Of a DNA stretch of 64,000 nucleotides, positions 32,320-35,683 are shown piece after piece. The stretch lies in assembly GCA_016218085.1 (NCBI GenBank), contig JACREY010000020.1:124001-188000 (forward strand). The letters run 5' to 3'. Both the position numbers and the translations under genes were made by a program. The notes below the pieces were generated by a model. It did not search any database. It was not told the DNA's origin and was given only the letters and a program-made list of their open reading frames with translations. This DNA comes from Ignavibacteriota bacterium (lineage in GTDB: Bacteria; Bacteroidota; Ignavibacteria; Tepidaquicellales; Tepidaquicellaceae). Position 1 is the stretch's first letter. Each line of letters opens with the position of its first letter.

Positions 32320-33288
32320 TCAATAATGCGTTGTTGCATCCCATACAACTTTTTTCTTTGTTTTGTGATATACGCTGACTGACCTGATTATCGCAAAGAA
32401 ATTTATAAATGAATCTATCGCAAGCCTGAATATACTTGCAAATCCATATTTTGCCCCGTACCACCCTGATGTGAATATAAACCTGTGCACACCCTTCGAC
32501 ACCATAAAAAGTAAATTGAAAATCATAAGAAACCAAAGTGCCGGATTTATGTTTCCTGTTATAAGTGAATTATCGATATTAAAAGCGGAACTGATTCCCA
32601 GATAAATGAAATATAAAAGAATTACATTTGATAAAAATGTTGACCAGAAACTAATTAGCGGTTTCCTGTCCCTGAATAGAAAATATTTAGTTCTTAAGTT
32701 TCCGTTCCATTTGTGTGCTTTCCAGTTCTGCAGACAGATTCCTGCTATCCAGCGAGACCTTTGCTTTACCGCAGGCCAGAATTTATTCGGAAAAAATTCT
32801 GCTGTTGCTATTCTTGTCGAGTTTTTGTCACCGTCGAGTTTTACATTAAAAAATCCTGTCTTAAGTTCGAGCTGATAAAACCTCATACCGAGTTCGTAAT
32901 CTTCTGTCAAATTTACATCGTTGAAAATGCCTTCTGTCTTGCTTTCCGGTCTAATTACCAAAGGCTCGTCTTCGATGCTTAATAAATTCTTATTGCTTGT
33001 CTCATTTTCCCGGCTTAAAATGGATATTTGTGTTTCGTTTAGTTTTTCAATTAACTTATTAATAATTGCATTAGCGCTGTTCAACTTGTCTTTAAGCTCG
33101 GTTTTATCTGATGTTAATTTAGTATCTGCTCTATCGGCATCAAGTTCCTTATTGAATTCATCAAATAAAATTTTTGAAATATCATTTTTTTGTTGCGATG
33201 TTCCATTATTAATATCAGTATTTTCTTTCGCGGGCTTATTTTCTCTTTCAATAAATCTTTTTACATAATCTATATTAATATTTCTCAT
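32320..33288 (-). CDS. C-terminal half of a split NfrB-like family-2 glycosyltransferase
   Basis: 322 residues. The first 120 residues are polar and low in complexity, with a probable coiled coil at about 40-95. From residue 125 the protein is the second half of a GT2 catalytic domain: TED at 128-130 (catalytic base region, in NLTEDYELG) and QRSRW at 176-180 (the QxxRW motif of processive or NfrB-type transferases). Membrane helices follow at about 210-232, 245-265 and near 295-310. It lacks the nucleotide-sugar DxD motif, which is on the upstream gene at 33317-34480. The two genes are separated by 28 bp on the same strand and presumably form one enzyme. Substrate unknown. Confidence 0.82.
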   Translation of the reverse strand: MRNINIDYVKRFIERENKPAKENTDINNGTSQQKNDISKILFDEFNKELDADRADTKLTSDKTELKDKLNSANAIINKLIEKLNETQISILSRENETSNKNLLSIEDEPLVIRPESKTEGIFNDVNLTEDYELGMRFYQLELKTGFFNVKLDGDKNSTRIATAEFFPNKFWPAVKQRSRWIAGICLQNWKAHKWNGNLRTKYFLFRDRKPLISFWSTFLSNVILLYFIYLGISSAFNIDNSLITGNINPALWFLMIFNLLFMVSKGVHRFIFTSGWYGAKYGFASIFRLAIDSFINFFAIIRSVSVYHKTKKKVVWDATTHY

Positions 33289-33316
33289 TTGTTTTCTTTT
33301 TTGTATATTTATTTGC

Positions 33317-34480
33317 TTATAAAAATATTTTTATTTCGTTTTTATTCTTTGTAAAGCTGATTGGATTATATTCCTGTAATTTACTTGAAGAATTTGATGT
33401 TTTATTATCTGATTTTCTTAAATCTTCCTGCAATCTTAATGGATTTTCTGAATTCCCTGATGAATAGTGTGAATTACTTGCATAATAATACAATCCGAAA
33501 CCTGAAATTACAAAAAGTATAAAGCCTATTGTAAAGGATATTATAGCCCATTTATTAGTTCTTGAAAAAACCGATGGCTTGGTTTTAAGCGCTTCAAAAG
33601 GATTATCCTTGTAATGAGTATTATTGAAATAATCATTTTCTTTTTGCAATTCTAAATTCTGAAAATAATCATTATTTACTTCTACTATTCTACCGAAAGG
33701 GTCAATATATGCTTTCCTTTCATGCTTTTCGACATATTCGGCTTTAGCTAAGGTTTCGGCGTTGTGCTTTTCGATGCAGTACATTGATTTTCTGTGAAAT
33801 CCCATTCCTGTTCCTGAAAACGGAAGAAATGTTTTTAATTCCTGCCTTATTATCATATCTTTAGTATGAGTCTCTGCAAATGCATCGCAGTAAGTTCTGT
33901 GTATCATATTACCGAGCTGACTCTTAATCGGAACTACAGGAATCTGAATTCCGTGATATCCTTTATATCCTATTAGATAATTGTAAAGCTTTAATGCCCG
34001 CGGATGAATGAAATCCTCCGCATCGTGTACAAGGATTATTTCAAACTCTCCGAATTGTTTTTCGAATTCGCTGATGGCTGAATATAAACAATTTAAATTA
34101 TCCGCCTTTGTAGAGGGACCGTTCTGAGGATTTATAACCATCTTTACCCTTCTGTCGGATTCGGATATTTGGCTTACTACATCTATCGTCTTTTGGTCGT
34201 TTGGATATACACCGACAAAAAATCTGTAGTTAGTGTATTTTAAATTGTTTACTGCGAAACTTAATGTCCTGCCTATTACACCTGATTCATTCCACGCACC
34301 AAGCATTATCGCTATCGGCTTTTCCGGTTTATCGTACATTTCGGAAAAATCAGGAAGGCTGTTCTTATGCTTTCGCTTTAATACCCAGTATAATAAATCT
34401 ACATAAAGGTCATCGAGCCCGCTAATGGTCAGCATTATCGTGGTTATCCAAATTAGTATCTGGAGTATATCAAAAATCAT
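33317..34480 (-). CDS. N-terminal half of a split NfrB-like family-2 glycosyltransferase
   Basis: 387 residues. An N-terminal membrane helix (about 3-20) runs into GLDDLYVDLLYW, a signature of bacteriophage N4 adsorption protein B (NfrB)-like transferases. The GT-A half follows: LGAWNES (64), KAD at 125-127, DAED at 153-156 (metal and sugar-nucleotide site) and FSGTGMGF near 221-228. The normal next motifs, TED and QxxRW, are absent. Instead the protein continues with a polar stretch, a second membrane helix (311-331) and a Ser/Asn-rich tail, then stops. The missing motifs are in the next gene. Probable role: transfer of a sugar to a surface polymer at the inner membrane. Confidence 0.83.
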   Translation of the reverse strand: MIFDILQILIWITTIMLTISGLDDLYVDLLYWVLKRKHKNSLPDFSEMYDKPEKPIAIMLGAWNESGVIGRTLSFAVNNLKYTNYRFFVGVYPNDQKTIDVVSQISESDRRVKMVINPQNGPSTKADNLNCLYSAISEFEKQFGEFEIILVHDAEDFIHPRALKLYNYLIGYKGYHGIQIPVVPIKSQLGNMIHRTYCDAFAETHTKDMIIRQELKTFLPFSGTGMGFHRKSMYCIEKHNAETLAKAEYVEKHERKAYIDPFGRIVEVNNDYFQNLELQKENDYFNNTHYKDNPFEALKTKPSVFSRTNKWAIISFTIGFILFVISGFGLYYYASNSHYSSGNSENPLRLQEDLRKSDNKTSNSSSKLQEYNPISFTKNKNEIKIFL

Positions 34481-34840: not shown

Positions 34841-35683
34841 GTGATAAAAAATTTTACTTTATTTTTTATATCTGTTTTAATCACTTCTTCCGCATATTCA
34901 CAACTAAAAGGAATAACTTCATACGATAATGCATATAGAAATATGATGTCCGGTGATTTTGAAAAGGCAATAAGCTTTTATAATGAATATCTCCTTTCTT
35001 ATCCTTCCGATTCCAGAGCCTATGACGAAAGGGGGAGGTGCTATGAAAACCTGCACAAGTATGACAATGCCATAAAAGATTATTCAACAGCTCTTTCGTT
35101 ATCTCCGTACACAGGGCTTTATTATAATGACAGGGGATATGCATACCTGAAATCAGAGATGACGGAAAATTCCATAAGTGATTTTACACTGTCGGTAAAT
35201 TATAACCCGAACAGTCCGGACGGATATGAAGGCAGGGTACAGGCGTACCTTGATCTTGGGAAAAACGAACTGGCACTGTCGGATATTAATAAAGCGATTC
35301 TACTGTCGCCCGAAAACCATTTATATCTAGTTACCAGAGCAGCTATATATTCTTTGCTTGATGATACTGCAAAAATGTATTCCGATCTTGAAAAAATTTT
35401 GAGCTTTTATCCGGGCTCTTTTTTTGCTTCGTATAAATCCCAGATTGTGGTTCTTCAGCTTGATAATTTTACTACCGGTATTCAGAACCTTTCAAGGGCA
35501 ATCGAAGAATCTCCGGGAGTAAGGCTTAATTACTTCAAGAGAGGATTCAATTATTATTTGCTAAGAAAATTCGATGCTGCAATAAGAGATTTCGAAAAAT
35601 GCATAAGTTTATCGGCAGAAACGGATAAAGTTGCTGTTTTATCATACAGGTTGATTGAAAATTCAAAATCTTATAAAGAGTAA
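34841..35683 (+). CDS. Exported TPR protein
   Basis: 280 residues from a GTG start. A signal peptide covers about residues 1-20 (ends SSAYSQ). The rest is about six TPR repeats (AFNEYLLSYP-like helical pairs, for example DERGRCYENLHKYDNAIKDY and NDRGYAYLKSEMTENSISD). TPR proteins of this kind act as periplasmic scaffolds. There is no T9SS tail or lipobox, so a periplasmic place is likely. The gene is followed by a DUF6132 gene 56 bp later. No specific partner is evident. Confidence 0.8.
   Translation: MIKNFTLFFISVLITSSAYSQLKGITSYDNAYRNMMSGDFEKAISFYNEYLLSYPSDSRAYDERGRCYENLHKYDNAIKDYSTALSLSPYTGLYYNDRGYAYLKSEMTENSISDFTLSVNYNPNSPDGYEGRVQAYLDLGKNELALSDINKAILLSPENHLYLVTRAAIYSLLDDTAKMYSDLEKILSFYPGSFFASYKSQIVVLQLDNFTTGIQNLSRAIEESPGVRLNYFKRGFNYYLLRKFDAAIRDFEKCISLSAETDKVAVLSYRLIENSKSYKE

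Follow-up and report, generated by a model that had tools for sequence, protein, structure and literature searches.

Two adjacent genes on the reverse strand of the window (the whole 64,000-nucleotide stretch of Ignavibacteriota DNA analysed here), which we call A and B, very probably encode two obligate subunits of one NfrB-type membrane polysaccharide synthase, as judged from profile comparisons and structure prediction. The motifs of GT2 glycosyltransferases (DxD, TED, and QxxRW) are all present and invariant in these proteins, but they are shared out over the two chains (Table 1). A first-pass annotation of the window had assigned KAD and DAED to A, and TED, QRSRW, and the C-terminal helices to B, and we re-found these motifs at the same coordinates. 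TED and QxxRW were not found in gene A; in B, which has three hydrophobic helices, there is no catalytic DxD, and the literal D-x-D strings (LDAD and LDGD) lie away from the catalytic position. Also present were the extra pieces that the annotation had described at the break, namely a helix with a Ser/Asn-rich tail in A, which we find to be rich in Lys as well, and a coiled-coil-like head in B, which comprises 116 residues.

Table 1 Features of the A/B gene pair, in window coordinates.
Feature	Position	Strand	Basis
Gene A, N-terminal half of NfrB-type GT2 plus tail, 387 aa	33317..34480	-	ORF
Gene B, head plus C-terminal half of GT2, 322 aa	32320..33288	-	ORF
Catalytic part of A, residues 1-240, with the N-terminal membrane helix and the donor-binding side of the GT-A fold	33761..34480	-	Own profile
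KAD motif, A 125-127	34100..34108	-	Invariant in 17 A sequences
DAED, DxD-type donor/metal site, A 153-156	34013..34024	-	D153, E155, and D156 invariant in 17 A sequences
A linker past the break, residues 241-311	33548..33760	-	Recurring YFxN...NxTxYxDxPFxxL, alignment consensus
A membrane helix, residues 312-330	33491..33547	-	Hydropathy 2.31
A Ser/Asn/Lys-rich tail, residues 331-387, putatively periplasmic	33320..33490	-	
Intergenic gap between A and B, 28 bp; B in frame +1 of A	33289..33316	-	
B head, residues 1-116, helical/coiled-coil, shortened, without transposase-derived domain	32941..33288	-	
B catalytic half, residues 117-322, with C-terminal membrane helices	32323..32940	-	Own profile
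TED motif, B 128-130	32899..32907	-	Invariant in 19 B sequences
QRSRW (QxxRW), B 176-180	32749..32763	-	Q176, R179, and W180 invariant in 19 B sequences

A search against the NfrB family, as proposed in the first-pass annotation, gave matches at complementary positions of a single profile. Gene A matched NCBIfam NF011305 at positions 3-239 (E 2.5e-68) and gene B at positions 241-453 (E 5e-36), so the domain has been cut with no part missing or doubled. The scores were 231 bits for A and 125 bits for B against a curated cut-off of 409, and thus neither chain reaches the cut-off alone. Gene A also matched PF13641 over positions 2-181 of 230 (E 2.4e-26). For structure prediction with AlphaFold we used the orthologous pair of a related genome (G008), the genes of which are in the same frame and were joined with the stop read as a residue. 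The catalytic blocks of the joined model mostly had pLDDT values of 85-97 (pTM 0.67), and the model aligned with E. coli BcsA (VIA-align Z 23.6, rmsd 3.6, 361 residues) over the model range 1-741, which includes both halves; given that the chain was artificially joined and that the alignment is rich in single-chain relatives, the model tests complementarity, not two-chain assembly. The GTG motif is followed by a helix, and the break falls between this helix and the TED segment; no solved structure was found by sequence for the fused homologue. The model shows the halves to be complementary parts of one BcsA-like fold.

The same break was recovered in related genomes, where the first-pass annotation had proposed to look for it: 16 intact adjacent A/B pairs are found in 11 Ignavibacteria genomes of six genera, a recurrence far above chance, and matches to A and to B occur in the same genomes. 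Two further genera hold damaged or contig-broken pairs (frameshifted copies in g5, parts on separate contigs in g6). The expectation that relatives normally carry both halves in one chain was borne out, as outside the clade each relative with both halves visible is a single chain. In the sister family (f2) the single chain measures 444 aa and has 2-4 residues at the break point; in genus g16 of the same family it measures 485 aa, with a loop of 40 residues at that place. This loop aligns with the first part of the A linker, which suggests a long-loop intermediate. Among 45 wider loci (from other Ignavibacteria, Aminicenantes, Kazan, Sphingomonas, and others), 44 were single-chain and one lay at a contig edge, and a 395-genome sample of the phylum yielded no further split outside the clade. 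A tree built from both halves places the split proteins in one cluster, with g16 as their sister and with moderate support (bootstrap 71-90). The first-pass annotation had considered that fused relatives might reveal a recent error; fused relatives do exist, but the split is an old, clade-specific trait of one Ignavibacteria family.

Some of the related genomes hold irregular copies. Both split pairs of G005 (L055 and L058) are frameshifted, which points to either poor MAG assembly or decay. In G006 the catalytic A is at the end of a contig, and a SPOR-membrane protein that has no catalytic half instead precedes two of the B genes. Such genes stand before B at L050:4537-5643 (-) and L051:2103-2804 (-) of G006; they combine the motif of the A tail with a membrane helix and an end resembling SPOR, and the L050 gene additionally has a B-type coiled-coil head. 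The SPOR-membrane genes before B may possibly encode a third subunit.

The genome from which the window derives holds a further, complete pair on another contig (copy 1), consisting of A′ (462 aa) and B′ (L005:5456-7297, 613 aa). Copy 1 has an operon-like order of TPR/outer-membrane-type gene, A′, and B′. The TPR gene (L005:2382-4028) overlaps A′ by 4 nt; its C-terminus resembles an outer-membrane barrel when read from sequence, though Pfam and NCBIfam give the barrel no support, and we regard the gene as a candidate NfrA-like partner. A TPR/outer-membrane-type partner gene is absent beside the window copy, which sits by itself, flanked by a TPR gene and a carB-like gene; these flanks differ in relatives. 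The TPR protein encoded at 34841-35683 (+) of the window is divergent from gene A, and no barrel was seen in it. Paralogous to copy 1, the pair in the window is a second copy and has lost the SPOR and transposase-derived pieces described below; this type of copy, which also occurs in G008, G020, G026, and G027, retains the membrane helix and a shorter head.

Both sides of the break are under strong purifying selection, with dN/dS of 0.012-0.036 for the catalytic halves (0.036 for that of A against the G020 orthologue and 0.029 for that of B against the G008 orthologue) compared with 0.05-0.40 for tails and heads (0.26-0.28 for the window-type B head), although the exact ratios are rough because synonymous sites are near saturation in several of these comparisons. 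The SPOR tail and head of copy 1 have dN/dS of 0.05-0.13 and are thus themselves under selection. A and B have a common history: their distance matrices are strongly correlated across the 16 pairs (Mantel r 0.936, p 1e-4), part of which is explained by shared ancestry alone. We found no full-length NfrB-type gene in the same genome. Complementarity, adjacency, selection, phylogenies, the lack of a full-length copy, and the single predicted fold together uphold the earlier proposal that the two proteins make one transferase. The accompanying proposal that they assemble through the added pieces goes further than this evidence, as the halves have a large natural interface of their own, tail and head are both variable and lost in some copies, and the G003 lineage has neither the membrane helix nor SPOR.

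The piece added to A is in most cases a SPOR domain (PF05036), which we detected after the membrane helix in 11 of 17 A proteins, with a best E of 2.1e-8 and several matches below the Pfam cut-off. In A′ it lies at 403-457 (E 3e-4), while the window A has no PF05036 match and its Ser/Asn/Lys-rich tail occupies the place of the SPOR domain. SPOR proteins bind peptidoglycan (PMC7642682), and by the predicted topology the SPOR domain of A would be periplasmic. The A lineage of G003 has neither the membrane helix nor the SPOR domain, and the tail is therefore dispensable for the split enzyme.

The piece added to B appears to derive from a transposase. B′ starts with DUF772, the N-terminal domain of IS5-family transposases (E 3.6e-9), and DUF772 matches above the Pfam cut-off were also obtained for B of G003, G004, G005, G014, and G018. 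A profile built from nine B heads matched an IS5-type transposase in G006 (E 4.8e-22). The DUF772 and DDE parts of the G006 transposase at L146:888-1899 (-) are in different frames, and it is either inactive or frameshifting. A tblastn search of plasmids with the B head returned 186 records, and among the matches listed the best ones were all annotated as IS5-family transposases. Across 43 relatives, the head was found only on B genes and in the transposase-like remnants of G006. The deep split genera g3, g4, g11, and g14 have it, as do g1 and g5, whereas g8 and the window-type copies do not; most simply read, this means that the split ancestor already had the head. The predicted fold of the B′ head (pLDDT 74.7) gave no convincing PDB match (best Foldseek E 1.5, VIA Z 4.1), and its transposase origin thus rests on sequence, by which the B′ head is identified as a putatively domesticated IS5-family transposase N-terminal domain. 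An IS5-family element probably took part in the fission and supplied the start of the downstream gene. This account does not cover the SPOR tail of A.

Taken together, these observations outline how the enzyme may work and how it may have arisen. Of the GT-A domain, A would provide the half for the donor sugar (KAD and DxED) and B the acceptor/catalytic half (TED and QxxRW), to which B adds the C-terminal membrane helices. Encoded side by side with only a few bases between their genes, the two proteins would meet at the inner membrane and thereby complete the active site. We infer that the pair physically assembles and is active. The product is likely a polysaccharide exported via a TPR partner, by analogy with NfrB and given the TPR outer-membrane-type gene before copy 1. 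As for origin, an ancestral single chain would first have gained a longer loop at the break, still seen in g16, and then have been cut there; the new downstream gene would have started with the IS5-family transposase N-terminal domain, the upstream half would have acquired the membrane helix and the periplasmic SPOR domain, and the window pair would later have lost the SPOR and transposase-derived pieces. This order of events is one that we infer from sequence.

The break could in principle have no counterpart in the living cell, and the use of MAG assemblies and the frameshifts in the G005 copies are what a sequencing error, assembly error, or recent pseudogene would lead one to expect. The same break with distinct starts and tails was nonetheless found in independent assemblies of six genera, with strong purifying selection on both sides, and we reject this explanation on the grounds of conservation and dN/dS, its probability being negligible. 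Only slightly more credible is the joining of the two frames in translation by programmed frameshift, stop read-through, or ribosome hopping, which would give one chain after all. The two genes are only 6-60 bp apart, they share a reading frame in 7 of the 16 pairs, and those of the window would be joined if the ribosome shifted by +1 at the stop; yet the frame offset from A to B varies between genomes, being 0, +1, and +2 in 7, 6, and 3 of the 16 pairs, respectively, which excludes a conserved frameshift or read-through, so that we rejected both. Some of the gaps moreover contain two stops, and in a joined product the membrane helix, mostly along with the SPOR domain, would land inside the cytoplasmic domain. 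A loss of enzyme function, with A, B, or both retained as pseudo-enzymes that serve in, for example, regulation or scaffolding, would fit the large non-catalytic additions and the G006 SPOR-membrane protein that precedes B with no catalytic half. We consider it improbable, as every catalytic motif is invariant in both halves, selection is tightest on the catalytic halves (dN/dS below 0.04, versus the higher values of tails and heads), and the genome has no other NfrB-type enzyme.

The finding that several genomes hold two A/B pairs, with more than one candidate B for each A, counts against the two-subunit reading, as do the arrangement of the A and B genes in G006 and the only moderate bootstrap support for the split clade. 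Within that reading, the pair may assemble while the split is functionless, the outcome of neutral fission after insertion of a mobile element that is hard to reverse by refusion. We give this a substantial chance that falls somewhat short of even, and as a special case of the two-subunit reading its probability is contained in, and not added to, that of the latter. It agrees with the transposase-derived head on B, with the rapid evolution of heads and tails and their loss in some lineages, and with the G003 lineage; against it, the SPOR tail and head of copy 1 are under selection and are kept in several genera. Control by assembly of the two halves is possible. In its most specific form, which is speculative and to our minds rather unlikely, the active site would exist only when two tethered halves meet, with A linked to peptidoglycan by its SPOR domain and B gathered in the cytoplasm through its coiled coils and the domain domesticated from a transposase. 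Polymer would then be made only at certain places or times, for example at the division site, and the IS5 insertion would have made the two genes.

If two subunits of one synthase are indeed encoded here, a naturally occurring split shared by the whole clade, together with its fused sister lineages and what looks like a long-loop intermediate, provides a rare view of gene fission. The SPOR tail and domesticated IS5 domain at the cut suggest how the cut arose, and they also suggest a testable control of a polymer synthase by assembly. The A/B split could further serve as a natural template for split-enzyme design.

The closest known system is NfrB, a c-di-GMP-activated glycosyltransferase of E. 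coli in the N4 glycan receptor pathway (PMC8669472, PMC8669469), which acts with the TPR-barrel protein NfrA (PMC8669472). By profile, the A/B pair has the same layout of GT2 domain and membrane helices as NfrB (PRK14716), and copy 1 is preceded by a TPR gene of putative outer-membrane type. NfrB is however one chain with a C-terminal MshEN c-di-GMP domain, whereas the A/B pair consists of two chains, many members of which differ further by the added SPOR tail or transposase-derived head. MshEN was not found in A or B with Pfam or NCBIfam, B ends at the last membrane helices, and no GGDEF gene was found in the genome; NfrB-type control by c-di-GMP is therefore unlikely. BcsA-type cellulose synthase, with which the joint A/B model aligns, shares only about 12% identity with the pair, in which no PilZ domain was found and the glycosyltransferase domain is spread over two proteins. 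Our literature search, which took in few subscription journals, returned no split GT2 and no GT-A enzyme cut within its catalytic domain, between DxD and TED. Alg13/Alg14 and EpsE/EpsF are glycosyltransferases encoded as two genes whose products share one active site and that are one protein in single-chain relatives (PMC8993221). They resemble A/B in building one active site from two genes, but they are of the GT1/GT28-type with a GT-B fold cut between the N- and C-terminal domains, whereas A/B is, by profile and fold, of the GT2 type with a GT-A fold, and its cut falls within the domain, between DxD and TED. Another parallel is the split cox2 of Campsomeris, in which the gene of a membrane enzyme became complementary genes and a mobile element is suspected (PMC5374615); that case is mitochondrial and involves a nuclease-type element, whereas A/B is a bacterial glycosyltransferase with a putative transposase domain fused to one of its halves.
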